Shown here piece after piece: positions 46,730-59,352 of a stretch of DNA of 64,000 nucleotides. A program made the translations under genes and the position numbers. The notes under the pieces were generated by a model, which was given only the letters and a program-made list of their open reading frames with translations, was not told where the DNA came from and searched no databases. The stretch is taken from the NCBI RefSeq assembly GCF_030295385.1, contig NZ_AP027079.1:372001-436000 (forward strand), given 5' to 3'. This DNA is from Geothrix oryzae. Lineage in GTDB: Bacteria > Acidobacteriota > Holophagae > Holophagales > Holophagaceae. How positions within the stretch are numbered: position 1 is the first letter of the stretch; each line of letters starts with the position of its first letter.

Positions 46730-46757
46730 TTGAATCTCCGCCCACCTCCGGTAGAAT
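46730..46757 (+). promoter_or_regulatory. Candidate promoter of the left tRNA-Asn
   Basis: TTGAAT (46730-46735) and TAGAAT (46752-46757) are 16 bases apart, with the tRNA start 15 bases beyond. The -10 lies inside the 101-bp repeat but the -35 lies outside it. The right tRNA copy keeps only the -10. Confidence 0.55.
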
Positions 46758-46847
46758 GGACCCTTGCCCTTTCCGGAGTAGCTCAGGGGTCAGAGCGGGT
46801 GACTGTTAATCACTAGGTCGGGGGTTCAAATCCCTCCTCCGGAGCCA
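46747..46847 (+). repeat. Left 101-bp direct repeat (attachment site with tRNA-Asn)
   Basis: This segment is identical to 56399-56499, offset 9652 bases. Identity starts at TCCGGTAGAATGG and ends with the tRNA CCA, after which the flanks differ. It covers the tRNA -10 region and the complete tRNA. Confidence 0.93.
46772..46847 (+). tRNA. tRNA-Asn (GTT), left copy
   Basis: TCCGGAG pairs with CTCCGGA in the acceptor stem. The anticodon loop reads CTGTTAA with GTT. GGTTCAAAT is the T-loop, and CCA is encoded. The D-arm and variable loop fit a type I tRNA of 76 bases including CCA. Confidence 0.96.
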
Positions 46848-46856
46848 GAAAGAATG

Positions 46857-46885
46857 CCCTGGAACCCAACGGTTCCGGGGCTTTT
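46857..46885 (+). terminator. Hairpin terminator after left tRNA-Asn
   Basis: CCCTGGAACC and GGTTCCGGGG form a 10-bp stem (one G-T pair) around CAAC, followed by CTTTT. It lies inside the element. Confidence 0.85.
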
Positions 46886-46950
46886 CGCATGTACCAAAGA
46901 TCTCCACCCGGCTCGCTCACGAGGGGTTGTTGGACCTCTTCAAGGTAGGT

Positions 46951-46970
46951 CAGGTGCAATAGAGGTGCAA
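46951..46970 (+). repeat. Integrase arm-site candidate, left end
   Basis: The 20-mer CAGGTGCAATAGAGGTGCAA contains AGGTGCAA twice and recurs exactly at 56293-56312 near the other end. A further GAGGTGCAAT lies at 47029-47038. Paired short repeats inside both ends are typical of tyrosine integrase arm sites. Confidence 0.65.
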
Positions 46971-47206
46971 GTCGATTCGCCTCGAATCCCGCGTGATTCC
47001 TGGGTTTCCAGCCGCATCGCACCTGCATGAGGTGCAATCGCCTGAAGTGATGGAATGAACCTCGCCTCTCTACTCCATTTCTGTCATGCCAGCCCCGAGC
47101 AGTTCCCTTCGACTTGTGGCTTGGCGGGGTAGGGGTGGGGTTTTCCTACACCCTGCCAAATCCGGCGAATACCCCACGGGTGCCCAACCTATGAACTGGA
47201 GGGTTC

Positions 47207-47235
47207 TGAGGCGGATTTAGGGTTAACCAAGGGAT
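47207..47235 (+). repeat. Imperfect 29-nt direct repeat, left copy
   Basis: TGAGGCGG, TTT, GGGTTAACCAA and GGAT blocks match 53777-53805 at 26 of 29 positions. A GTTAAC palindrome sits in the centre. It lies upstream of the helix-turn-helix gene. Confidence 0.7.
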
Positions 47236-47333
47236 CTGCTGACCGATTCGCCAGACCCAACAGAAGGAGCGGCGGAGCGCCAGATCGGGAGAAAAGATAC
47301 TGTCTCCTACGAATAGGTGAAGGAGGGTCCAAG

Positions 47334-47567
47334 ATGACCTTTGAAGACCTACTCGACCTCAACGACATGGGCGACCGCCCGCTCTACCCAGTCTCGGCAG
47401 TGTGCCGATTGCTGAATGCCACCCCACGAGCCGTAGCCACCTGGGTTCGGCAGGGTCGGCTTGACGCGGTGAAAGCCTGTGGACGCATCCGGTGGATCAG
47501 CCGGGAGTCTCTGGCAGCCCTGGTGTTTGAGGATAGCCACGCGGAAGAACTGGCAGAGACACTCTGA
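47334..47567 (+). CDS. Small helix-turn-helix protein (excisionase/AlpA-like)
   Basis: The 77-residue protein reads YPVSAVCRLLNATPRAVATWV and GRIRWISRESLAAL, a MerR/excisionase-type winged helix in which the recognition helix is followed by a wing. GGAGG lies six bases before the ATG. In integrating elements such proteins direct excision or activate early genes. It could be the excisionase for the integrase at the far end. Confidence 0.75.
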   Translation: MTFEDLLDLNDMGDRPLYPVSAVCRLLNATPRAVATWVRQGRLDAVKACGRIRWISRESLAALVFEDSHAEELAETL

Positions 47568-48172
47568 AGCCATCCAGTGGCTTGCCAGGGGCTCCAGCCG
47601 GTGGCTAGCGGCATGACTACAGAACTGCATCCAGGATTACATCCGGGATTACATCGTTGGCAGGCTGAAGGGCTGAACCAGAGGGAACACGATGAGAGGC
47701 AACCCAGCCGATTCGATTATCTTTCAGCCTGCCTCCAATCCTCGTAGCAGGCGAGTCTACCTAGACCCAAGAGAATTCGAGCATCAATCAACGATCAGCC
47801 AGCCAGCCTTCCAGGCGGGCTGGATCTGAGGTAGACGAGACTGCATCAATATTTAAGGAAGTAATTACTTCTTTAATTTTCACAAATCAACTTACTGGCG
47901 GGTGGTAGTCCAAGCCAAGGAGCTATCCACCATGCCGTGCTATCAGGCAGCCTTCCCTCACTCCAGCCGACCGCCGCCTTATCAATAGGCTGCTCTTGCT
48001 CCACCCCATCTCTAGATCCCTAACAAGTTAGGTCGATGTCCAGGGCTCTCTGACGGACGCCCCAAAGCACGACACCCCTTCCCACCCCCAGGCGGAACCC
48101 TTCCCAGCGAGGGCAACGGTCCGCCATTCCCAACCAGCTTTGCGGTCTTCGATGACCGCCCAAGGAGGCTCT
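47568..48172. other. Non-coding region with an AT-rich palindrome, candidate origin or operator
   Basis: No gene is supported in these 605 bases. GAAGTAATTACTTC (47858-47871) is a perfect 14-bp palindrome inside the most AT-rich stretch of the window (about 47848-47892). GGATTACATC occurs twice at 47634-47655. It lies just upstream of the primase-polymerase genes, where a replication origin could sit. Function not shown. Confidence 0.5.
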
Positions 48173-48517
48173 ATGTGCCTTTCTGAAACCCTCACCCTTC
48201 CCGTCTCTTCCTCTCCCTTCGAGTTTGAGGAGGACATGCGGCTCCCCGAACCTCCCGATCCGTACGCGGAAGCCTACTGGTCCATCCGCCACCTGATTGA
48301 AGGTGATCTGAACTGGCTGGAGGAAGAGCCCCGTCACGAAGGCAATCTCCTGCTTCGTTACTTCGGGAACCATGTGCCCCGTATGAAGGATGTCCTCGAA
48401 TACCGTGGGCTCCTCCGTGAATGTCTCGCCGCTGTTCCTGGGCGGTATGTGGTCCTTCCCATGCCCGATTTCACGCCCAGCTATGGGCTCGATCAGGCAG
48501 AAGAGCATGACGCCTGA
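48173..48517 (+). CDS. Small protein of unknown function in the element (114 aa)
   Basis: The ATG at 48173 is preceded by AGGAGG. The protein is acidic and soluble, with aromatic residues (DPYAEAYWSIRHLIEGDLNWL). No known domain is recognised. The last 11 bases overlap the primase-polymerase start, implying coupling. Confidence 0.65.
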   Translation: MCLSETLTLPVSSSPFEFEEDMRLPEPPDPYAEAYWSIRHLIEGDLNWLEEEPRHEGNLLLRYFGNHVPRMKDVLEYRGLLRECLAAVPGRYVVLPMPDFTPSYGLDQAEEHDA

Positions 48518-49841
48518 TTACCCGACCAACTGGTACGGCACTGCCATCCAGGCTGGGATACGCCCGCTTCGTCTCATCTCAGGGACGAAGCGGTGCCCCA
48601 GTGGAACCTGGGAGGACCACATTCTTCGTTCTCCCGAGGATGTACGGGTTGCCTTCGATCAGGGCTTCAATGTCGGCTTCCTTCTCCAGGGGAAGGGCGG
48701 GATCTTTCCGAACTCCCCTGGTGTATGGGTGAATGACATAGATTCCCAGGCAGCGTACGACCGCTTCGGAGATGCAGCCTTCAATCTGATGGTTGCCCGG
48801 GATCACCCCGCGAAGCGGCACCTGTACGCCCGCTTACCTGACCCCTCCCGTCCCAGAGCCTCGCGGCTGATCCGCCAGTCCCACGATGTGAAGCTCACGG
48901 GCATCGTCGTGGGACCGGGGAGCCGTTATGAGGACGGGAGCTTGTACGAGGCGTTCCAGCGGAGCCCCGTTAGCGGCTTATGGGAGCCCTGGGATGGAAG
49001 CCCGGTCGATTGGTCGGCGCTGTCAGTAGTAGATCACAGCCCGTATCTGCCACCACCAAGGCTCATCCCGCTATCGAAGCTCCAAGCCCAGGCGCTCATG
49101 AAGTTCATCGATACGGAATGGGTGATCCAGGATGAGAGCCACGACGCGAACGAAGTCACACCCGCATTCACCACAGCAAAAGGTGAGCTTCAGGATCGGA
49201 TCTACCGAGGCGAGGCTTACATCCGTAACCGAATTACGCTCGGCATCGTCAGCAAATCCGGGAATGGAGGAAGGGCAACGCTGCTCGTCATTGTGACGCA
49301 CCTGCTTCGATACCTCTGCCTCCCACCGGGGAAGGTTCTCGAACTGCTTGCCCTTCCCGTCCATCTCCAAATGCGCTCTTGGAATGCCCACTGCATCGAC
49401 GCCAGAACCAAGCAGCCTTATCCCTGGAGCCGAGAGGAACTCATCTCTGCCATCAAGGCAGCGCAGTTCTACAGTCCTGCCTACGGGGTGCAGGAGTATC
49501 AGCGCCTTGCCAAGATTGCCGCTGCCAATGACCGGATGATTGATCTCTGGACCTTGATCAACAGCATCCCACCTCAGCCAGAGCCCATTCCTGCCATGAG
49601 TGCTGAGGCTCTGTACAAGGTCTTCATGGAGCTGTACAGCGTGGAGCCAGAAGGATGTTCCTATCGGCGCTTCACCCTAGCGATCCAGAAGGCGAGACGA
49701 GCCGGATTGGTTCGCATAGGGAATGCCCGAGGTGGTGGACGCCGAAAACTGCGCTACTACCAAGGCGTCACACCCGATCTGCTGGAGCTAGCCCTGGAGC
49801 TTCGAGGTGACGAACAAGGCGATCAGGATGAGGCGGCTTGA
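48507..49841 (+). CDS. Bifunctional primase-polymerase (Prim-Pol) protein
   Basis: The 444-residue protein matches the Prim-Pol N-terminal domain: IRPLRLISGTKRC, FNVGFLLQG, the catalytic Asp pair VNDIDSQ (residues 77 and 79) and KRHLYARL (His105). The middle is helical, and the C-terminus resembles a winged helix (SYRRFTLAIQKARRAGLVRI). Such proteins prime replication of plasmids, phages and satellites. With the helix-turn-helix gene and AT-rich region it forms a likely replication module. Confidence 0.78.
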   Translation: MTPDYPTNWYGTAIQAGIRPLRLISGTKRCPSGTWEDHILRSPEDVRVAFDQGFNVGFLLQGKGGIFPNSPGVWVNDIDSQAAYDRFGDAAFNLMVARDHPAKRHLYARLPDPSRPRASRLIRQSHDVKLTGIVVGPGSRYEDGSLYEAFQRSPVSGLWEPWDGSPVDWSALSVVDHSPYLPPPRLIPLSKLQAQALMKFIDTEWVIQDESHDANEVTPAFTTAKGELQDRIYRGEAYIRNRITLGIVSKSGNGGRATLLVIVTHLLRYLCLPPGKVLELLALPVHLQMRSWNAHCIDARTKQPYPWSREELISAIKAAQFYSPAYGVQEYQRLAKIAAANDRMIDLWTLINSIPPQPEPIPAMSAEALYKVFMELYSVEPEGCSYRRFTLAIQKARRAGLVRIGNARGGGRRKLRYYQGVTPDLLELALELRGDEQGDQDEAA

Positions 49842-49850
49842 GGGTGCGGT

Positions 49851-49930
49851 GCGGGGGGAGCAAGAGCACTCTGTTAACTAGTAAGAGAGATAGACAGTAG
49901 TAAACAATAAGAAGCCTCTCGCTCCCCCGC
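49851..49930. repeat. Long inverted repeat between convergent genes
   Basis: GCGGGGGGAGCAAGAG (49851-49866) pairs with CTCTCGCTCCCCCGC (49916-49930), with one bulge and one mismatch, across a 49-base AT-rich loop containing GTTAAC. It lies between the 3' ends of the Prim-Pol and RHH-type genes and could be a bidirectional terminator or a recombination or replication structure. Confidence 0.7.
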
Positions 49931-49932
49931 CA

Positions 49933-50373
49933 TCAACGCTTAAACCACTCGAAGTCCTTCAAGAATTTCAGCCTGAATAGCGATAGCTCCCAGTCTCCAC
50001 TAGAGAGCACCACTGCCATCACCCACTTCCACGGCTGCGGAATCCGACCATCTCTTGCCCATCCACTAGCCAAACGCGTCAGGGCTGCCGGGGTAAGCGG
50101 TCGATCCAAAGGCATCCTTTCCCGCTTGAAGGCAGCCATAATCGCAGCCGCGAACTCGGCTGGATCAGGATTCTCCTTGACCGCCTTGAGCACATCGCTC
50201 GCCAACATTTTGTCCATCAGTTCAGGGATAAGGGCATGATCCCGGATTGTCTGATCCACGAAGGTGCCCATCTCAATGCCAAGCTCGGCGGAGCGAACCC
50301 GGATCTCTTTGGCGACCTTCTCGGAGACGGTGATGGTGATCTTCGACCAGCCTGGGCGTTTTGGGCGTGCCAT
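49933..50373 (-). CDS. RHH-type DNA-binding-like protein (146 aa)
   Basis: The N-terminus (GWSKITITVSEKVAKEIRVRSAELGIEMGTFVDQTIRDH) looks like a ribbon-helix-helix DNA-binding unit, with a beta strand and two helices. The remaining 100 residues are helical and unknown. A palindrome lies 13 bases upstream of its start, suggesting autoregulation. The start is ATG at 50373; a TTG two codons earlier is possible. It may be a partition or copy-control protein. Confidence 0.7.
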   Translation of the reverse strand: MARPKRPGWSKITITVSEKVAKEIRVRSAELGIEMGTFVDQTIRDHALIPELMDKMLASDVLKAVKENPDPAEFAAAIMAAFKRERMPLDRPLTPAALTRLASGWARDGRIPQPWKWVMAVVLSSGDWELSLFRLKFLKDFEWFKR

Positions 50374-50385
50374 GGGCAACCTTTG

Positions 50386-50410
50386 GTTAGAGGTGTAGCT
50401 ACATCCTAAC
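50386..50410. promoter_or_regulatory. Candidate operator palindrome upstream of the RHH-type gene
   Basis: TGTAGCTACA (50394-50403) is a perfect palindrome flanked by GTTAG and CTAAC arms that are one base out of register. It lies 13 bases upstream of the gene start at 50373, in the right place for binding by the encoded protein. Confidence 0.6.
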
Positions 50411-50786
50411 GGGCACTCAGTGAAGAGGAGTCGGTAGGCAGACGACAGCTGCTACAACTTTTTGGAAACAGCAAATGGAGGCTATCTCCTCTCTGCCCTT
50501 CCTCATTGAGTTTCTGGTGGCACCGCCTTGCCCGAATCACCTGTCGGCATTCAGGGAATCTCTGTGCCAATCTCAGAGTGGTACAGCAAATTTTCGGTGG
50601 GCGCTTCGGATTAGAGTCAGCTGGGGTCGGTCAATGACCTGGAAGCACTTTCTTTCGAGCTTGCGGGAGCCCAGACGTAACCCCACCACATCTAGAAGGG
50701 GCGAAAGACAACATATTCTACGAGCATGGTTGCTAAGATTGCCTCTGGACGATTCCTACCCAAAGCCGAATGCCCTGGGAGAGCTA
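50411..50786. other. Upstream region of the restriction-modification gene
   Basis: I see no supported gene here. The restriction gene's frame stays open back to 50475, but the codons look unlike the gene itself, and a ribosome site marks the start at 50787. It probably holds the promoter; no clear motif was found. Confidence 0.5.
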
Positions 50787-53555
50787 ATGCCCAAGAAAAA
50801 AGACCCAATAGTGCAAGAAAAAACTAAGTTTAAAGCGCCATCACTTGATGAACTCCGATCGGAGGAAGATGTAAAAATAAAATTTTTATTGCCATATCTT
50901 GAGGCAAAAGGATATACCAGCAAGTGCATCAACTTTAATGTCCCTATTGAGGTTCAGGAGGGACGAAAGCAGAAGACGATTTTTGCAGACGCCGTTGTCT
51001 ACTCTACGCCCTCGAAAACAGCCCCGTTAATCGTATGCGAAACCAAGCCTCCTACGGAGGTTCTCTCTAAAACCGTCAAAGAACAGGCAATTTCCTATGC
51101 ACGGCTTTTGCCCCGCATAGCCCCATTAGCTTTGATTACGAATGGGGGGCAAACCCAGCTTTTCCAGACACTCAGCAAGAATCGTATCGGGGAGCTTCCT
51201 GATCGGAAGGACCTTAAGGATGACTTTGTTTCCTTTGTTGTTAGCGCCGAACTTCAAGAGTCCCTTAAAACTGAAGCGAAGCACGATCTTTTCGTCATTG
51301 ATGATGTTCAATCCTTCAAGACGGTCTTGAGGGCTTGTCACGAAGCAATTCGAAACAACGAAGGTTTTGATGCAACAAGAGCTTTCGATGAAATGTCCAA
51401 GGTACTGTTTTGCAAGATGTACGAAGAGCGTAACCACCCTGGTGATAACAATCGTTTCAGAATGTCGATTTATGACGACACCCTGAAACGGCTTGGGGTG
51501 AATGTCGTCAACCAAATCTGGAATGAGACCAAGGTTGATCCTAGGTATGCCAGCCTTTTTGAGTCCAATGCAGACGTCGGTCTAAAGCCTATGACTATTA
51601 GAAAGATCGTTGAGCAGTTTGAAAACTTTGATCTCTCTCTCACTGCATTCGATGTAAAAGGTGAAGCTTTTGAGTATTTTCTAGGCGAAACCTTCACTGG
51701 TGGATTGGGAGAGTATTTCACTCCCCGGAATGTCGTTGAATTCATGGTTGACGCACTTGACCCAAAGATTGGTCAGAAGATTGTTGACCCGTTCTGTGGC
51801 ACGGGCGGATTCCTGATCTACGCATTTGAGGTTGTGGGCGAAAAAATCCGGCTCCAGGATTTTGGAGACGAGGAAAAAGCTCGCTGGAAAGAAGAACTTT
51901 CAAACAGGTGCATTTATGGTACCGACTGGAAAGAGCGCACCGCCCTCGCCTGCAAAATGAACATGACCGTTCACGGTGACGGGAGCGCTGGAATCTTCCT
52001 TCATCATGGGTTCATTGACGTTCCGGGAATGATTGAGGAGGGGCTTTTCAACCTTTGCCTAACCAACCCGCCATTTGGTTCGTTCGAAAACGACCCTGAG
52101 ATATTGAGCCGATACGAGCTTGGAGCAGGTCGCAACTCTCAAGATCGCGTCACCCTTGCCATCGAGCGTGTGCTTCGTCTCGTCAAACCTGGTGGAAGGG
52201 TAGGAATCGTTGTTATCGATGGGCTATTAAACAATGATTCCACAAGGTACGTCCGAGAATATATCAAGAAAACCGCCTTTGTTCGTGGAATCATTAGTCT
52301 TCCAGCCGTAACATTTCAAGGCTACCACGCCCGAGCAAAGACTAGCATTTTGTTCCTGGAGAAGAGGGCGAACCCAGACGATAGCGGCATCCAAGAGGAT
52401 ACGTTTTTCTGCGTAATTGGTAATAGCGGATACGCGCCAAACGGCAACCCCGTCCCGGGAAACGAACTCCCTGAAGCTCTCCTTGATTGGCGTGCATTCG
52501 AATCTTCCAAGCCTATCGGTGCTCATAAAGAAGCCTGGATCGGGAAGATAGAGGATCGGATGGACGCCGAGTTTTATCGAAAGCGTAAAGTTCATGTCCG
52601 CCCAGAGGAAGAGCAAGTCGTCTCTGCCGGGCAAGACATGCTAGCCATGCTTGCTATGATTTCGGAGGAATTAGCGGCTGTCTCCTCGGACATCAAGACA
52701 ACCTTTTCGAGCATCGAAACTGTCTCGGTCCCGCTGTCAGCCATCTTCGAGCCATGCGAGGAGGTCATTAAGGTCGGCTCAACCACCGTATATAAGCTGC
52801 TTGGTGTTAAGTGGTGGGGTGCTGGAACTTTTTTGCGCGAAGAGAAAACCGGAAAAGAAATCAAAGCCACCCGCCTTTTCAGGGTTCACCAGGGCTGGCT
52901 TGTCTACAACCGCTTGTTTGCATTTCGAGGGTCATTTGCTCTAATCCCGCCCGAGCATGAGAACTGCTACGTTTCGAGCGAATTCCCCACTTTCAAAGTC
53001 AGGGAGAATACGAAAGAACCTGAACTACTTGCCAACTATGTCATTCACTGCCTGAACAGCCCTCAATACCTCCTGGAGGTTGATCGAGATTCAACCGGAT
53101 CAACGAAGACCAGTCGCAATCGCTTCAAAGAAGATCGTTTTCTTCGGATGCGTGTCGAAATTCCCAGGAAAATCGCACATCTTCGCCAGCTTGTTGACCT
53201 TCTGAACAAAGCGAATGTCCTTCGAGCCTGCCAAGTTGAGGTCGCTGAGCGCTTCAAACGGTTCAATGAAGATCTTTCTCGCTTACTACCCCATGAACCT
53301 GATGCTCTTACTGTTGATACTAGCGATGTCGAAGTTTTTTCGAATCGAACATCGGAGGAGCATGAGCCAAAACCGGCGAAAATAACATCACGAAAAAAGG
53401 GTAACCGGAAACCGATCAGCGCTAAGAAGCCTGCCGCTAAAACCCTGCCTGCCAAGAAGAGTCTTTCTCCGAAGCGCTCTGTGGAGAAACCCAAGCCCAA
53501 GACACCCAGAGCCGCGAAACCAACGACAAGGAAGAAGCCGGGACCAAAGAAATAA
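50787..53555 (+). CDS. Single-chain restriction-modification enzyme (type IIG-like, nuclease-methyltransferase-specificity)
   Basis: The 922-residue protein joins an HsdR_N-like PD-(D/E)xK nuclease (Asp68 in FADAVVY, Glu85-x-Lys87 in CETK, and Gln100/Tyr104 in QAISY) to an N6-adenine methyltransferase (DPFCGTGG at 334-341, NPPFG at 427-431). A target-recognition region follows at about 640-860 (KVGSTTVYKLLGVKWW, LLANYVIHCLNSPQYL). The last 60 residues are Lys/Pro-rich (AKKPAAK, RKKPGPKK). It would cut and methylate the same site without partners. Start is the ATG after GGGAGAG. The gene is clearly less GC-rich than the host. Confidence 0.88.
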   Translation: MPKKKDPIVQEKTKFKAPSLDELRSEEDVKIKFLLPYLEAKGYTSKCINFNVPIEVQEGRKQKTIFADAVVYSTPSKTAPLIVCETKPPTEVLSKTVKEQAISYARLLPRIAPLALITNGGQTQLFQTLSKNRIGELPDRKDLKDDFVSFVVSAELQESLKTEAKHDLFVIDDVQSFKTVLRACHEAIRNNEGFDATRAFDEMSKVLFCKMYEERNHPGDNNRFRMSIYDDTLKRLGVNVVNQIWNETKVDPRYASLFESNADVGLKPMTIRKIVEQFENFDLSLTAFDVKGEAFEYFLGETFTGGLGEYFTPRNVVEFMVDALDPKIGQKIVDPFCGTGGFLIYAFEVVGEKIRLQDFGDEEKARWKEELSNRCIYGTDWKERTALACKMNMTVHGDGSAGIFLHHGFIDVPGMIEEGLFNLCLTNPPFGSFENDPEILSRYELGAGRNSQDRVTLAIERVLRLVKPGGRVGIVVIDGLLNNDSTRYVREYIKKTAFVRGIISLPAVTFQGYHARAKTSILFLEKRANPDDSGIQEDTFFCVIGNSGYAPNGNPVPGNELPEALLDWRAFESSKPIGAHKEAWIGKIEDRMDAEFYRKRKVHVRPEEEQVVSAGQDMLAMLAMISEELAAVSSDIKTTFSSIETVSVPLSAIFEPCEEVIKVGSTTVYKLLGVKWWGAGTFLREEKTGKEIKATRLFRVHQGWLVYNRLFAFRGSFALIPPEHENCYVSSEFPTFKVRENTKEPELLANYVIHCLNSPQYLLEVDRDSTGSTKTSRNRFKEDRFLRMRVEIPRKIAHLRQLVDLLNKANVLRACQVEVAERFKRFNEDLSRLLPHEPDALTVDTSDVEVFSNRTSEEHEPKPAKITSRKKGNRKPISAKKPAAKTLPAKKSLSPKRSVEKPKPKTPRAAKPTTRKKPGPKK

Positions 53556-53873
53556 CGTCGCAAAACAAACAACTGACTTCTTTGCATTCCCATTAAACGG
53601 CTAATAGGCGAATCATCGGCAAACGCCTCTCCACAACGCCCGCCGAGGCAATGTCATCACGCTATGCGATTGTCAGAGATCTGATGAGCCCGGATGAAGC
53701 CAAGGGCTGCCCGGACACAGGGCTACGCCCGCATCTATGGCAGAGGCTTGACCTCAGACAGCATCCAAACTGAAGATGAGGCGGGTTTGGGGTTAACCAA
53801 AGGATTGTTATTGGAGGCTGCAAACTAGGGATGGCAGCAAGAGGCGAGAGATGAGTGCAGCCTGAAGGGGCTT
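53556..53873. other. Gap after the restriction gene
   Basis: No gene is supported in these 318 bases. It contains the right copy of the 29-nt imperfect repeat at 53777-53805. Confidence 0.5.
53777..53805 (+). repeat. Imperfect 29-nt direct repeat, right copy
   Basis: TGAGGCGG, TTT, GGGTTAACCAA and GGAT blocks match 47207-47235 at 26 of 29 positions, in the same orientation. The two copies flank the replication and restriction genes. Confidence 0.7.
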
Positions 53874-54458
53874 TTACTTAGGCTGCTCAGAGGGTGTCTC
53901 GGCTTCCATCTTCTTCTGCAAGTCCTCCAAGCGATTGACCGCAGAGTTACAAGTCTTCACAGCCTCTTGGTTGTCGTAAATCTCGTCCTTCACCTGATCA
54001 ATTTTTTGATTTACTGCGCTGACCAGCTTGTTTCTTCTGGTTTGCTGACCGTCGTACAAGCCCACATATACATCGACATCCCCAGGGACATTGCCGTCGT
54101 ACAGGCACTTTTTGTAGTAGTCGATCCTGCCATTGAGATAGCTGATTCTCCCATTGATCTGCCCTCGCACTTGATTGTGCATGGCGATCAGCAGCTTTGC
54201 CGTAAGCAGGGGCGTCTGTGCATTTTCAAGCATCAGCACTTCCTGAGGGCTCAGATTCGTGAGCACGCTTTCTGCCATGACTTGCTGCTTCGTGATGCGT
54301 GGTTTGGGCGGCTCCGGTGCTGGCATGGCAGGCGGGGCTGGATCGGCATCCTTCTCAACCACGGGAGTCGGCTTCGCCTTCTTGGCGGGCTTCTTCGCAG
54401 GTGGGGCAGCCGTCAGAGACACGCCTAGAAGCAGTGTGAGCGCGGGTATTAGGTTCAA
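53874..54458 (-). CDS. Secreted coiled-coil protein of unknown function
   Basis: The 194-residue protein has a signal peptide (LIPALTLLLGVSLTAA), a Lys/Pro-rich spacer (KKPAKKAKP, then PAPEPPKP) and long helices (VRGQINGRISYLNGRIDYY, NQKIDQVKDEIYDNQEAVK). It is probably periplasmic. The start is TTG at 54458 with AAGGAG six bases upstream; a longer GTG reading exists at 54503. Nothing indicates its job in the element. Confidence 0.65.
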   Translation of the reverse strand: MNLIPALTLLLGVSLTAAPPAKKPAKKAKPTPVVEKDADPAPPAMPAPEPPKPRITKQQVMAESVLTNLSPQEVLMLENAQTPLLTAKLLIAMHNQVRGQINGRISYLNGRIDYYKKCLYDGNVPGDVDVYVGLYDGQQTRRNKLVSAVNQKIDQVKDEIYDNQEAVKTCNSAVNRLEDLQKKMEAETPSEQPK

Positions 54459-54503
54459 GGGGTGCTCCTTAATTAGGCTTCGCTTTGGCATGACGCAATT
54501 CAC

Positions 54504-55064
54504 TTATGGCTCCGTAAATTGGGTGAGAAATAGGTGGAGCAGCCCCGCAAGAACCTTTGCCCTCGACATGCCGCGCACCGATGCCAGCGCCTTCTCAATT
54601 TCTTGGATTCGCTCCAGGGTGACGAGGTAGACGCGACCGTTCGCCGTCCGAATGGGATCAGTGCTTGCCCGCAGCTTCCGCTGCTTCACGAAGAGGACGG
54701 CGGCTTCCACCAGGGCGGGCAGATTCCCGTCAAATCCATTCACGGCGTCTTCATAACAACCGCTGATGCTGCCGGGATGCTTCTGCATCCTGAAGAACAC
54801 AGATTCAGGAACCGTGGTGCCCACCAAACGGCGACGAGTCTCTACGAAGGCGAGTTCCAAGCCCTTGATGTCTCCATGGAGCTTCGGTGGCATCGTGCCC
54901 GTGCCAGCCTTCTTCGGCTGGGCGGGGCGGCAGAGCGAGGGATCGGCTCCCGGCAGTGGTGCAGGTTTTCGGGGCACTGAGGGATTCCGTGGGATGGCTG
55001 GCGATGACTGATGATCTACGGGTGATGTTCGATGAATCATTCTGGAAGACCCCGCCAAAGCCAT
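54504..55064 (-). CDS. Protein of unknown function in the element (186 aa)
   Basis: I do not recognise it. The C-terminal 130 residues are helical (LELAFVETRRRLVG, LERIQEIEKALASVRGM, RAKVLAGLLHLFLTQF) and end just before the next gene. The first 60 residues are Pro/Ser-rich, and the start is uncertain (55064 or an internal Met at 55040 or 54893). It sits upstream of the coiled-coil protein. Confidence 0.5.
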   Translation of the reverse strand: MALAGSSRMIHRTSPVDHQSSPAIPRNPSVPRKPAPLPGADPSLCRPAQPKKAGTGTMPPKLHGDIKGLELAFVETRRRLVGTTVPESVFFRMQKHPGSISGCYEDAVNGFDGNLPALVEAAVLFVKQRKLRASTDPIRTANGRVYLVTLERIQEIEKALASVRGMSRAKVLAGLLHLFLTQFTEP

Positions 55065-55200
55065 TCAAGTGCCAATAGATAGAACATATGGAAGCCGTAA
55101 CACATTACGGAACACGACTCATAATCCGTAACAGAACACGGTGACAAAGGCTCTTGAGAAGCCCCATGAGGGATGAAGGAAAGCGTGGCTTCGGCTCCCA

Positions 55201-56238
55201 TCACGCCAACCCCAGCTTCAGTCCGAGGGCGTCCTGGGCTCGGCGCTTCGCGTCGCTGCTCTGCTGGATGTAGAGGAGGGTAAGGATAGGTGAGGTGTGA
55301 CCCATCATGCCTTGCAGGTCGGACAAGGCGGTTCCCTCCTGAGCGTGGAGGGTCGCAAAAGTGCGGCGGAGTGAATGGGGAGTGATTCCCTCAATGCCTA
55401 GATCCTTTGCAGCACGAGCCAGGGTCTTCTTCGTGAACTGCCCCCGGTGGGCGGTCCCGTCAGAACATGGGCAGATGAACTCACTGAGGGTCTTGGGCAT
55501 CTCCAGGAGGTGCGACCAAAGCCAAGCTGGAACAGGGATGGTCCGAGGGGTCCGGGTCTTTGACCTCCCCACGGTGTAGGTGTGTTGGGTCAGATCCAAC
55601 CACTTCCACCGTGCTTCCAGCGCCTCCGACTCACGCAACCCCAAACCCACCATGAGGCGAATCAAGGTCGCTGCCTGCGGACTCGTCGCGTGCTTATCTA
55701 CGGCGCTCAGGAACTCCTTCATCCGGTGCGGAGGAATGGTTGGGCGAGGAGGCTTCTGGGTTTTGATCTGCTGGACTTTGAAGGGGACTTTCTCGATCAG
55801 GTCAAGGCGGATGGCGAAGTTGAGCAGGAGCTTCACCACCCGGAGAACAAGGTTCGCGGTAGCGGGAGAGCGCCCCTTTTCTAAGATCTGACGGCGAAGG
55901 TCCAGCACCGCCTGGGTGTTGATGCGGTTGATCCGAACATCCCCAACTGCGGGGATGATCCAGTTGCGGGTCAGGTGCTCAACGCTCTTGAGGTGCTGGA
56001 GGCTATGAGTAGGACGATGGGTCTCCATCCAGTTGGCGATCAGGTCTTTCATCATAGGGATGACGACCTTCGGCTCTGGCGGACCGAACAGCGCCTCCTT
56101 GCGCTTCTCCTGGAGAACTTTTTCGGCAGACGCGCGATCCGTTGCACGGGTGCTGCCCTTGAACTGCTGCCCATTAATTCGGAAGCAGTAGTGATAGACC
56201 TTCCCCTCCCGGGAAAGACCGTTTCGGAACTTCGACAT
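55201..56238 (-). CDS. Tyrosine integrase of the tRNA-Asn element
   Basis: The 345-residue recombinase has an N-terminal arm-binding region, a SAM-like core-binding domain (residues 60-165) and a catalytic domain. Visible residues: Arg202 in GLGLRESEAL, His288/Arg291 in HSLRRTFAT, His314 in MMGHTS and Tyr323 in LLYIQQ. AGGAGG lies five bases before the ATG. It reads away from the right tRNA-Asn, which lies 186 bases upstream, the usual placement for an integrase that recombines at the tRNA. Confidence 0.94.
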   Translation of the reverse strand: MSKFRNGLSREGKVYHYCFRINGQQFKGSTRATDRASAEKVLQEKRKEALFGPPEPKVVIPMMKDLIANWMETHRPTHSLQHLKSVEHLTRNWIIPAVGDVRINRINTQAVLDLRRQILEKGRSPATANLVLRVVKLLLNFAIRLDLIEKVPFKVQQIKTQKPPRPTIPPHRMKEFLSAVDKHATSPQAATLIRLMVGLGLRESEALEARWKWLDLTQHTYTVGRSKTRTPRTIPVPAWLWSHLLEMPKTLSEFICPCSDGTAHRGQFTKKTLARAAKDLGIEGITPHSLRRTFATLHAQEGTALSDLQGMMGHTSPILTLLYIQQSSDAKRRAQDALGLKLGLA

Positions 56239-56292
56239 GCTCGCCTCCTGGGTAGGTGGCAAGCGGGTGGATCAAAGGCGGGAACTCCTCAG

Positions 56293-56312
56293 CAGGTGCA
56301 ATAGAGGTGCAA
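56293..56312 (+). repeat. Integrase arm-site candidate, right end
   Basis: CAGGTGCAATAGAGGTGCAA matches 46951-46970 exactly. It lies between the integrase start and the right tRNA repeat. Confidence 0.65.
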
Positions 56313-56398
56313 ATCCTGGTTGATGAGGAATTCGAGTCGCGGTTCTATCTGGGGAACAACCTGGGAGTTTCGCCGTAAGTGGTGATCCCAATGACCCA

Positions 56399-56499
56399 TC
56401 CGGTAGAATGGACCCTTGCCCTTTCCGGAGTAGCTCAGGGGTCAGAGCGGGTGACTGTTAATCACTAGGTCGGGGGTTCAAATCCCTCCTCCGGAGCCA
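56399..56499 (+). repeat. Right 101-bp direct repeat (attachment site with tRNA-Asn)
   Basis: This segment is identical to 46747-46847 and bounds the element on the right. The bases before TCCGGTAGAATGG and after CCA differ from the left copy. Confidence 0.93.
56424..56499 (+). tRNA. tRNA-Asn (GTT), right copy
   Basis: Sequence identical to the left copy. It keeps TAGAAT upstream but lacks a recognisable -35, so the level of transcription is unclear. Its CCA is part of the following terminator stem. Confidence 0.96.
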
Positions 56500-56538: not shown

Positions 56539-56821
56539 TTGAGGCCTTGGGAGTTGAACCACGGGGGGGGGTGCCGGCAATGGGTTCAAATCTCCCCGCA
56601 ATAATAAAAAGCCGATCAATGTCTCGGGATGCGAACCCCTCATGGTTTTTTGAGACGGAATCCAAAAAAAGGCGTCACGCCCAAGGGGGTCGCTGCACCC
56701 CACTGGCTGACGACCTGACCACCCTGTGTTCCCGCCCGATCGTCGGGCCGGACGGGTCATGTCTGATGATCGGGGCTGCCCTGCGGCCCCCTGGCGCGGC
56801 TCTGGCCGCCAGGAGGATTCC
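56539..56821. other. Gap before the EGxCG peptide operon
   Basis: No gene is supported. GGGTTCAAATCTCCCC near 56583-56598 resembles a tRNA T-arm and may be a decayed tRNA remnant. AGGAGG at the end is the ribosome site of the next gene. A promoter for the operon should be here, but I found no clear motif. Confidence 0.45.
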
Positions 56822-57145
56822 ATGATCACGAAACTCGTCGGTGCCGCCACGCTCTTCGCCGCAGGCTCTTTGATGGCGGGCGGATCCACCACCCTTGGCG
56901 CCACTCCCGTCGCCCCCTTCGGTGGGGATGCGGCCCTGACCCAGGCCGGGGAGTGCGGCTCGAAGGATCCGAAGGAGGGCGATAAGGCCCCTGCGAAGAC
57001 CAAGGAGGCCAAGGGAGCCAAAGGCGCCAAGGACAAGGCCAAGGAGGGCGGCTGCGGCGGAGGCGGTGGCTGTGGCAGCCACGACATGAAGAAGGACAAG
57101 AAGGAAGGCAGCTGCGGGAAGGACAAGAAGGAAGAAAAGAAGTAG
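56822..57145 (+). CDS. Precursor of a Cys-modified RiPP (bufferin/HvfA-like)
   Basis: The 107-residue peptide has a signal-type N-terminus (KLVGAATLFAAGSLMAGG), a Lys/Ala linker (KTKEAKGAKGAKDKAK) and four Cys at 45, 78, 84 and 98. They sit in GECG, EGGCGGGGGCG and EGSCG, resembling the EGKCG motifs of bufferin/HvfA peptides. In that family Cys becomes a thiooxazole or oxazolone/thioamide, giving copper or metal binding in the periplasm. AGGAGG precedes the ATG. A DUF692 maturase follows 13 bases later. Confidence 0.85.
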   Translation: MITKLVGAATLFAAGSLMAGGSTTLGATPVAPFGGDAALTQAGECGSKDPKEGDKAPAKTKEAKGAKGAKDKAKEGGCGGGGGCGSHDMKKDKKEGSCGKDKKEEKK

Positions 57146-57158
57146 GCCGGAGGTCGCC

Positions 57159-58034
57159 ATGGCGCAGGGCCGGTTCCCGGGCCAGGAGCGATTCGCGGGC
57201 GTGGGCTTGGGCCTCCGCCGCCCCCATCTGGAGGCGGTGGCGGCCCGGCCGGAGCATGGTGTGCCTTTCTGGGAGACCTGCCCCGAGAATGTGATCGGGG
57301 ACGGCGGGCGGCCCCATCGGGACGCCTGCGCCATCCTGGATCGGGATCCCGTCCTCACCCACGGCCTGGCCATCTCTGTGGGTGGCTTCGATCCCTGGGA
57401 TGGGGACTACCTGCGGGAGCTGGGGCGTTTCCTGATCCGTACGGAGACGCCCTGGCACTCCGAGCATCTCTGCTTCACGAGCGTGGACGGCAGCTGCCTC
57501 CACGAGCTGCTGCCGATTCCCTTCACGCGGGAGGCCGTCCGGCACACGGTGGCGCGGGCCCGGGACCTCCAGGCCCGCCTGCCGGTGCCGCTCCTCCTGG
57601 AGAACATCACCTACTACGCCGAGCTGGGGCGGGCCGAGATGGACGAGGCGACCTTCATCACGGAGGTGCTGGAGGGGGCGGAGGTGGGCTGGCTGCTGGA
57701 TGTGAACAATGTCTATGTCAACGCCCTCAACTTCGGCTTCGATCCCAAGGCCTGGCTGGCGCGCATGCCCCTGGACCGCGTGGCGCAGCTGCACATCGCA
57801 GGGCACAAGCGTTTCGGGGCGCTCACGGTTGATACCCACGGCACCGCGGTCATCGACCCGGTGATCGAGCTGATGCAATGGGTCCTCGCGCGCCTGGGGA
57901 GGCCCGTGCCCGTGCTGCTCGAGCGCGACAACCACATCCCGGACCTGGAAGAGCTGCTTTCGGAGCGGGCCCGCATCCAGGCGGCCTATGACCAGGTGCT
58001 GGCGGTGCCCGTACGGGAGGCGGAGCATGCCTGA
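57159..58034 (+). CDS. bufB: DUF692 multinuclear iron oxidase (BufB/HvfB maturase)
   Basis: The 291-residue TIM-barrel enzyme shows MNIO features: GLGLRRPHLEAV, CPENVIG, LTHGLAISVGG, TPWHSEHLCF, LLENITYYAE, LLDVNNVYVNA, HIAGHKR, DTHG and LLERDNHIP, supplying His/Asp/Glu ligands for two or three irons. It oxidises precursor Cys residues. The start follows GGAGG. The next gene's start overlaps its stop. Confidence 0.93.
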   Translation: MAQGRFPGQERFAGVGLGLRRPHLEAVAARPEHGVPFWETCPENVIGDGGRPHRDACAILDRDPVLTHGLAISVGGFDPWDGDYLRELGRFLIRTETPWHSEHLCFTSVDGSCLHELLPIPFTREAVRHTVARARDLQARLPVPLLLENITYYAELGRAEMDEATFITEVLEGAEVGWLLDVNNVYVNALNFGFDPKAWLARMPLDRVAQLHIAGHKRFGALTVDTHGTAVIDPVIELMQWVLARLGRPVPVLLERDNHIPDLEELLSERARIQAAYDQVLAVPVREAEHA

Positions 58035-58860
58035 AACCCTTGCCGGGCCCGAGTCCCGCACCCTCGCGCTGCAACGGGCCCTGGCGGGCCTGGTGCTCGA
58101 CGCGGAAGGCGAGGCCTTCGGGGGGAATGCTTCGGGTTTCGCCCGACGGCGGGGGCTGGGGGAACCGGACCAGCAGGCTTTCCTAGCCTTCCGCGATGGC
58201 CTGTCGGCCTATCGGGAGCTGGCCCGCCTCAGCCTCATGGATCCCATCGAGACCATGTTCCCGATCACCCGGGCGCTGCTGGAGCGGGAGGGAGCCTGGG
58301 AGCCCTGCCTCCAGGCGTTCCTGGAGGCCCGTTGCGTGCGGAGCCCCCACTACCGCGACATCGCGCCGGCCTTCCTGGGCTGGCTGGTGGCGAGCGGGTG
58401 GGGCCGGAGCCGCTGGCCCTTCTTGCCGGAGCTGGCCCACGCCGAAATCCTGGAAGTGCTGGTGAGCCGGTTCCCCGAGACGGGGCTGCCTGCGGGCCTG
58501 CGGCCCGAGCCCCGGATGGGAGACCGCATCGTCCTCCATCCCGCGACCCAGGTGGTGGCTTACGGACATGCCGTCCACCGGGTGAGCGAGGACGGGCCCG
58601 TGCCCGAGGCGAGACCCACGCACCTGCTGGCGTTCCAGGGGCGGGAAGGGGCCTTCCAGCTGCTCGAACTGACGCCCGTCACGGCGACGCTGCTGGTCCG
58701 GGCCCAGTCGGAGCCACTGGCCGAGGCCGCTCGGGAACTCGGCGTGTCGGACCTTCCGGCCCTGTGGGTGTTGCTACAGGATCTCCGGGCCCAGGGCGCC
58801 ATTGGTGGATTCCAGGCCGCCCCTGATCCACGGGGTGCCCCGCGCACGCCCTTGGCGTAG
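58027..58860 (+). CDS. bufC: DUF2063 RiPP maturation partner (BufC/HvfC)
   Basis: The 277-residue protein has the DUF2063 N-terminal helical domain (LALQRALAGLVLDAEGEAF, YRELARLSLMDPIETMFPITRALL, SPHYRDIAPAFLGWL) and a C-terminal region (LLAFQGREGAFQLLELTPV, EAARELGV) of winged-helix character. It delivers the precursor to the DUF692 enzyme. Its ATG overlaps the bufB stop by eight bases. Confidence 0.9.
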   Translation: MPETLAGPESRTLALQRALAGLVLDAEGEAFGGNASGFARRRGLGEPDQQAFLAFRDGLSAYRELARLSLMDPIETMFPITRALLEREGAWEPCLQAFLEARCVRSPHYRDIAPAFLGWLVASGWGRSRWPFLPELAHAEILEVLVSRFPETGLPAGLRPEPRMGDRIVLHPATQVVAYGHAVHRVSEDGPVPEARPTHLLAFQGREGAFQLLELTPVTATLLVRAQSEPLAEAARELGVSDLPALWVLLQDLRAQGAIGGFQAAPDPRGAPRTPLA

Positions 58861-58881: not shown

Positions 58882-59352
58882 ATGAACCGCAGATCCCTCG
58901 CCTTGGCCGCGCTCGTGCTGGTGGGGCCCCTTGCCGCCCAGAAAGCGCCCGAAAAGCCGAGCCCGAAACCGAGCAAGACCTCCAAAGCGAAGGCGCCCGC
59001 CATGATCACGACCGCCACCGGCCTGCAGTATCTCGATGTCCAGGTGGGCACTGGACCCGCCCCCGTGCGCGGCCAGCGCTGCCTCGTCCACTACACGGGC
59101 TGGCTGTCGGACAAGGGGCAGAAGGGCAAGAAGTTCGACAGCTCCCTGGATCGCGGCGAGCCCCTGGCCATCCCCATCGGCGTGGGCCGCGTCATCAAGG
59201 GCTGGGACGAGGGGCTGATGAGCATGAAGGTGGGCGGCAAGCGCACCCTGCACATCCCGGCCCACCTGGGCTACGGCGTCCGCGGCGCCGGCGGCGACAT
59301 CCCACCCAATGCCGACCTGATCTTCGAAGTGGAGTTGCTGGGCGTCCAGTAG
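58882..59352 (+). CDS. Secreted FKBP-type peptidyl-prolyl isomerase
   Basis: The 156-residue protein has a signal peptide (SLALAALVLVGPLAAQ), a Lys/Pro spacer and an FKBP domain (GLQYLDVQVGTGPAPVRGQ, VHYTGWL, FDSSLDRGEPL, IGVGRVIKGWDEGL, GGDIPPNADLIFEVELL). It aids periplasmic folding and closes the RiPP gene cluster. Confidence 0.95.
   Translation: MNRRSLALAALVLVGPLAAQKAPEKPSPKPSKTSKAKAPAMITTATGLQYLDVQVGTGPAPVRGQRCLVHYTGWLSDKGQKGKKFDSSLDRGEPLAIPIGVGRVIKGWDEGLMSMKVGGKRTLHIPAHLGYGVRGAGGDIPPNADLIFEVELLGVQ

Follow-up and report, generated by a model that had tools for sequence, protein, structure and literature searches.

The operon and its surroundings

Does the small gene for a Cys-containing peptide that precedes a DUF692 gene in Geothrix belong to the class of operons making copper-holding 5-thiooxazole peptides, and if so, is it one of the known types or a variant? 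We addressed this question in a window of 64,000 nucleotides from the complete, 3.27 Mb genome of a Geothrix species, an iron reducer of soil (Holophagaceae, Acidobacteriota). Three genes lie there on the forward strand: a bufA/hvfA-like precursor gene at 56822..57145, whose 107-aa product has a putative Sec-type N-terminus, four Cys in GxCG motifs and Lys/Ala/Asp/Glu linkers; the gene of an MNIO (DUF692) maturase at 57159..58034 (291 aa; PF05114, E 3e-87); and, sharing 8 bp with the latter, the gene of a DUF2063 + NGO1945_C partner at 58027..58860 (277 aa), which is HvfC/PME1-like by Pfam, 3DEE profile and fold. An operon of precursor, DUF692 and DUF2063 genes had been proposed by a sequence-only reading, and it is real, with all three genes at the place given and its coordinates correct. 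When a second MNIO was looked for, the host genome held only the one, and no orphan precursor was found elsewhere in it.

The MNIO is encoded by 29 of 60 relatives, including 26 among 36 Geothrix genomes, and a collection search yielded 69 loci from Holophagaceae, Myxococcota, Bacteroidota, Pseudomonadota and a chlamydia. The order precursor-MNIO-DUF2063 is conserved throughout the family. In comparison with five close relatives, all three genes are under purifying selection, with dN/dS of about 0.10-0.39 (0.11-0.23 for the precursor).

An FKBP gene (58882-59352; PF00254) follows the operon and had been listed after the DUF2063 gene. Besides the window's species, five others have an FKBP gene 3' of the operon, and all of these are of one clade defined by a GGGGGCG core; in the seventh member, G. 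fermentans, the contig ends before this position, and no FKBP gene adjoins the operon in the remaining Holophagaceae loci examined. Since the adjacency is confined to the window's seven-species clade, FKBP was rejected as an operon partner and left out of the system. No copper gene, DoxX gene or sigma/anti-sigma pair stands beside the operon. DoxX was not found near MNIO in any of the Geothrix genomes searched for both, and the host's copy lies about 2.5 Mb away.

Upstream, a 101-bp perfect direct repeat with tRNA-Asn(gtt) (76 bp of tRNA plus 25 bp) flanks about 9.7 kb at 46747-56499, which contains a tyrosine integrase gene (55201-56238, reverse strand) and a DNA-methylase-like gene (50475-53555, forward strand). 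This segment is an integrated genomic island with its attachment repeats. The operon was considered as cargo of the island and rejected as such, since the island stops at 56499, about 320 bp before the precursor start.

The maturase and its partner protein

The iron-site motifs of the MNIO (E39, H68, H103, E148, D181, N183/N184, H212, D225, H227 and E255) are each kept by 76 or more of 79 homologues, as is D257, the proposed catalytic base. Loss of the iron ligands, which had been named beforehand as an observation that would speak against the RiPP assignment, was not seen in the window protein. The best solved relative of the MNIO is 3BWW (E 4e-49), reported to share 72% identity with HvfB, whose site-3 ligands N175, D242 and H244 are essential (PMC13419390). 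We equate these residues with Asn183/184, Asp225 and His227 of the window protein, which would be their counterparts.

In FonB, Asp249 is the catalytic base and Arg15/Arg16 and Phe250 are substrate-reading residues, the Arg pair reading Glu1 of the substrate (PMC12668002). Their putative counterparts in the window protein, placed by motif, are D257, R20/R21 and N258. The presence of Asn258 at the position of FonB Phe250 suggests that substrate reading may differ. The residue that follows the ERD motif (position 258) is Asn, Gln or His in Holophagaceae and Myxococcota, where cores are mostly SCG or GCG; it is Phe or Tyr where cores are KCG, and Asp or Gly where they contain Cys-Lys. Strict co-variation of this residue with the one before Cys (Lys versus Ser/Gly) was rejected: the trend is strong but has exceptions, with Asn accompanying KCG at loci L059, L060 and L062, and Tyr (L090) or Phe (L113) accompanying SCG. 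Few independent changes of the residue occurred on the tree. The relation between the post-ERD residue and the core thus appears to be a lineage trend only.

The third protein matches PF09836 (DUF2063) and PF22106 (NGO1945_C) above the Pfam cut-offs, with E 7e-9 and 8e-8, respectively. A profile built from 52 homologues found 3DEE at E 1.6e-14. In addition, its AlphaFold2 model (pLDDT 94.6) gave 3DEE as the top Foldseek match (E 2.7e-6), followed by TglHI structures. By profile and by predicted fold, the protein is of the MNIO partner fold and matches the gonococcal partner protein 3DEE.

The precursor peptide

The four Cys of the precursor, at residues 45, 78, 84 and 98, stand in the contexts GECG, EGGCG, GGGCG and EGSCG, each followed by Gly. 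The body of the peptide is of low complexity (Lys/Ala/Gly/Asp/Glu), and four GxCG motifs were obtained in none of 200,000 shuffles of its mature part. The N-terminus was judged signal-like by eye only (Lys, a hydrophobic run, Ala sites) and is conserved in the Holophagaceae alignment. A Cys-Gly precursor lies directly 5' of MNIO in nearly all Holophagaceae loci having upstream sequence, and a GxCG-type ORF likewise precedes MNIO in Bacteroidota, Myxococcota and Pseudomonadota relatives. Within the mature region, the Cys-Gly motifs are the best-conserved part. The window precursor had no match in NCBIfam or Pfam at E 1; NF050188 was touched by 7 of 34 precursors of relatives, at best with E 1.8e-6.

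Among Holophagaceae precursors, GSCG is the commonest Cys context (100 cases), followed by GGCG, ASCG, GDCG and GTCG, and Lys-Cys is rare. The EGGCGGGGGCG core occurs in only seven Geothrix species, which form one clade in the MNIO tree (support 99/99), indicating that this core is a clade-specific variant; other Geothrix have DGSCGKGSCG and one to several C-terminal KEGSCGKDK units. The view of the Gly-rich core as a distinct variant was thus upheld by the family-wide alignment as to distinctness, within the bounds of these seven species. The Lys/Ala linker had further been described as unusually long. It does exist, but its 32 residues from the first Cys to the next fall within the 19-33 of most relatives and are ordinary for the genus, and Lys/Ala linkers are present in Bacteroidota and Pseudomonadota precursors as well.

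Conservation of Cys45 is not strict, and in the GGGGGCG clade Asp or Glu stands before it. FonBC tolerates Ala in front of Cys, requires that a small residue follow and handles Glu before Cys poorly (PMC12668002). Since Ala is tolerated and a small residue is what must follow, GGCG and GSCG cores are plausible substrates, and since Glu is handled poorly, we expect by analogy that Cys78, Cys84 and Cys98 would be modified, whereas Cys45 (GECG) may stay unmodified.

At two Myxococcota loci (L065 and L074), a tandem pair of precursor genes lies 5' of MNIO; their products have lipoprotein-like N-termini and end in EASCGEGSCG-like sequence, possibly a lipid-anchored double-precursor form.

A promoter-like element and a structured leader

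A bipartite element, GTCAC-N16-GCACC, lies at 56674..56699 on the forward strand, with an A-rich run in front of it that starts at 56664. Situated 112-150 bp 5' of the precursor start, it is exact in 28 of 34 Holophagaceae loci and carries one mismatch in four more. In the alignment of upstream DNA its spacing is fixed at 16 bp while the spacer sequence has diverged, and the element is present also in subfamilies whose MNIO is only about 64% identical. Five exact sites exist in the host genome, and across 37 Geothrix genomes the element amounts mostly to the precursor-upstream copy plus a background similar to that of the reversed pattern. A regulon was therefore rejected, the other sites being few and near the reversed-pattern background; one of them (L105), checked by eye, has no recognisable partner downstream. 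Judged from this conservation, the element looks like a private promoter of the Holophagaceae precursor operons.

The promoter consensus of ECF41 is TGTCACA-N16-CGTC (PMC3426412). In most Geothrix the left box resembles its -35 box TGTCACA, and the right box is GCACC instead. No gene in the host genome reaches the cut-off of TIGR02957, which we took as a proxy model for ECF41 sigma factors. Control by ECF41 was rejected on both counts, the differing right-hand box and the lack of a gene above this cut-off.

Two hairpins follow on the forward strand. Hairpin 1 (GGGGCTGC-CCT-GCGGCCCC; 56772..56790) is paired in 93% of cells of a 28-leader alignment and has two compensatory pairs. Hairpin 2 (56790..56813) ends inside the Shine-Dalgarno sequence AGGAGG (56811-56816); its core stem GCGG/CCGC is invariant in 28 of 28 sequences, and the flanking pair is compensatory in two. 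Over both hairpins 94% of cells pair, and three pairs are changed on both sides, a number reached by 28 of 500 shuffles; one-sided changes in the stems are G-U. The single-sequence fold of the leader is unexceptional (z -1.2). A covariance model of the leader found one strong site in the genome, at 69 bits versus 22 for the next, and no known RNA family was found for the leader in Rfam. These alignments argue with moderate strength for tandem GC hairpins conserved between the promoter-like element and the start codon. The conserved promoter-like element and these hairpins at the Shine-Dalgarno sequence are what is new at this locus.

Relation to known MNIO systems

Judged by its gene features, namely an MNIO with an intact iron site, a DUF2063 partner with an RRE and an upstream Cys precursor, the operon belongs to the MNIO-PME1 class (captophorins: bufferin/oxazolin). 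The description of the locus as an MNIO operon of metal-buffering RiPP type was right as to type, with the iron ligands kept and the partner having the known MNIO partner fold. Its further assignment to the HvfABC type holds for the mode of action and fails for strict membership. The curated NCBIfam models were all missed, with HvfB at 263 bits against a cut-off of 360, BufB at 251 against 310 and HvfC at 92 against 142. An HvfABC equivalog was rejected on these cut-offs together with the lack of EGKCG or Lys-Cys motifs, of an HvfA model match and of DoxX in the cluster.

With the oxazolin, fontiphorin and gonophorin systems (HvfABC, FonABC and NgoABC; Buf_EGKCG), the operon shares a precursor with repeated xGxCG, whose signal peptide is putative in Geothrix, an MNIO, a DUF2063-RRE partner of 3DEE fold and the order A-B-C; fon has the same minimal three-gene layout. 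In contrast to these systems, the Geothrix operon has Ser or Gly where they have Lys before Cys, irregularly spaced motifs joined by Lys/Ala linkers in place of tandem EGKCG, Asn258 for Phe at the FonB Phe250 site, and a putative private GTCAC-N16-GCACC promoter with a structured 5'UTR; it also lacks DoxX, which is common but not universal in HvfABC and bufferin clusters. The bufferins Buf1 (DUF2282) and Buf2 (6 or 12 Cys, Cys-Lys) likewise combine MNIO and DUF2063 with a Sec-type precursor, putatively so in Geothrix, and Cys targets, but the low-complexity Geothrix precursor is unrelated to theirs in sequence, and the Buf2-like MNIOs examined, unlike that of the window, mostly have Asp or Gly after ERD, with Cys-Lys motifs. 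Among plasmid relatives, the one closest to the window's MNIO is that of P. aeruginosa plasmid pPALO11 (L113, CP075839.1). It is 46% identical and is accompanied by an EGSCG/EGNCG precursor with Lys/Ala linkers and by DUF2063; this operon differs in having Phe after ERD and DoxX, ECF sigma and zf-HC2 genes in the cluster.

According to a survey of MNIO substrates, Buf_EGKCG is found mostly in Pseudomonadota, and hundreds of small Cys ORFs beside such MNIOs are unclassified (PMC12452194); the Geothrix precursor type may be among them. None of the papers searched was found to describe a Geothrix-type operon, or thiooxazole-metallophore-type operons in Acidobacteriota. The Geothrix operon is a variant, specific to its clade, of a family described only recently, not a new kind of system. 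Such operons are thereby extended firmly into Acidobacteriota, where EGKCG-based models miss precursors of the Geothrix type.

Proposed function and alternatives

In characterised relatives, MNIO-PME1 pairs turn the Cys of such motifs into 5-thiooxazole; the reaction uses O2 and a diiron site of mixed valence, and the resulting peptides bind Cu(I) (PMC12668002, PMC13419390, PMC12452194). We put at roughly three in four the probability that the Geothrix locus is a captophorin-class (bufferin/oxazolin-like) RiPP operon in which Cys are converted to 5-thiooxazoles and a Sec-exported peptide holds Cu(I), expressed from a dedicated promoter. For the Acidobacteriota members this reading draws on sequence and models, and on characterised relatives for the chemistry and Cu binding. 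Transcription would start from the GTCAC-N16-GCACC promoter, probably through an ECF-type sigma factor, and the ribosome site would be preceded by a short, structured 5'UTR. The DUF2063-RRE protein would recognise the precursor through its N-terminal signal/leader region, and the MNIO, with its Fe(II)/Fe(III) site and O2, would turn Cys78, Cys84 and Cys98, possibly also Cys45, into 5-thiooxazoles, at -4 Da each. The peptide would then be exported by Sec and hold Cu(I), perhaps also other soft metals, in the periplasm.

The same 5-thiooxazole chemistry could serve another job than copper homeostasis, such as handling a different soft metal or oxidative/redox stress at oxic-anoxic boundaries. 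That Geothrix is a dissimilatory metal reducer, that neither copper genes nor copper regulators adjoin the operon and that related plasmid operons have ECF sigma, MerR or various other metal genes in their vicinity would fit such a role, but copper is what those 5-thiooxazole peptides generally bind that have been characterised so far (PMC12668002), and a Cu-amended enrichment was dominated by Geothrix (PMC10946571), which is consistent with a copper role and proves nothing; we consider another job unlikely. Less probable still is a reading that a 5-thiooxazole product would contradict. So far, 5-thiooxazole has been the product of each characterised MNIO that has a DUF2063 (PME1) partner, and FonB variants at Phe250 still formed it (PMC12668002), which weighs against the hint given by Asn, Gln or His replacing Phe or Tyr in the Holophagaceae-Myxococcota group, with its mostly SCG/GCG cores, and by the several chemistries of the MNIO superfamily (PMC12452194).

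It is hardly credible that the small ORF encodes a secreted protein, rich in Lys and Cys, that stays unmodified, and that the MNIO has another substrate. The sole support for this reading is the missing model match of the window ORF; against it stand the position of the ORF 5' of MNIO in nearly all Holophagaceae loci, the same GxCG pattern in three other phyla (Bacteroidota, Myxococcota and Pseudomonadota), the conservation of the Cys-Gly motifs above the rest of the mature region and the failure to find another precursor in the genome.

Beyond the captophorin-class reading, we tentatively propose, as an idea that is itself more doubtful than not, that Holophagaceae with their Myxococcota relatives have a 'Ser/Gly-Cys' captophorin subfamily to themselves, set apart by the substrate-reading residue of its MNIO, by a structured leader and by a bipartite promoter private to it, and serving metal-respiring bacteria in O2-gated metal buffering. 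If this were true, the peptide would be matured only when O2 is present, that is, as soft-metal toxicity and oxidative stress rise together. As a compact natural case, the Geothrix operon lends itself to testing how the pre-Cys residue (Gly/Ser versus Lys) is read by MNIOs, and its putative promoter, private and deeply conserved, gives a handle on what controls operons of this kind, both the sigma factor and the signal, be it a metal or a stress.

G. fermentans has been described as strictly anaerobic (PMC10946571), and an O2-dependent maturase in a genus with such members makes one ask when the peptide is produced, which can be tested. Since the host genome has COX1 and CydA homologues, O2 can be available in principle, and a paradox of an O2-dependent maturase in an anaerobe was rejected; two of the three COX1 matches are long and could be NO reductases. 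G. fermentans DSM 14018 also carries a second MNIO cluster (L061, 2560-5624; also L031), in which a GSCGAGSCGG precursor and the MNIO are separated by a radical SAM/SPASM gene. This gene scores 106 bits against the model of the thio(seleno)oxazole maturase SbtM (cut-off 350), with AhbD, NirJ2 and ACGX scoring alike, and at E<1e-20 its type was found in only that genome among the Geothrix searched. The cluster could combine an O2-independent with an O2-dependent route to the same heterocycle.
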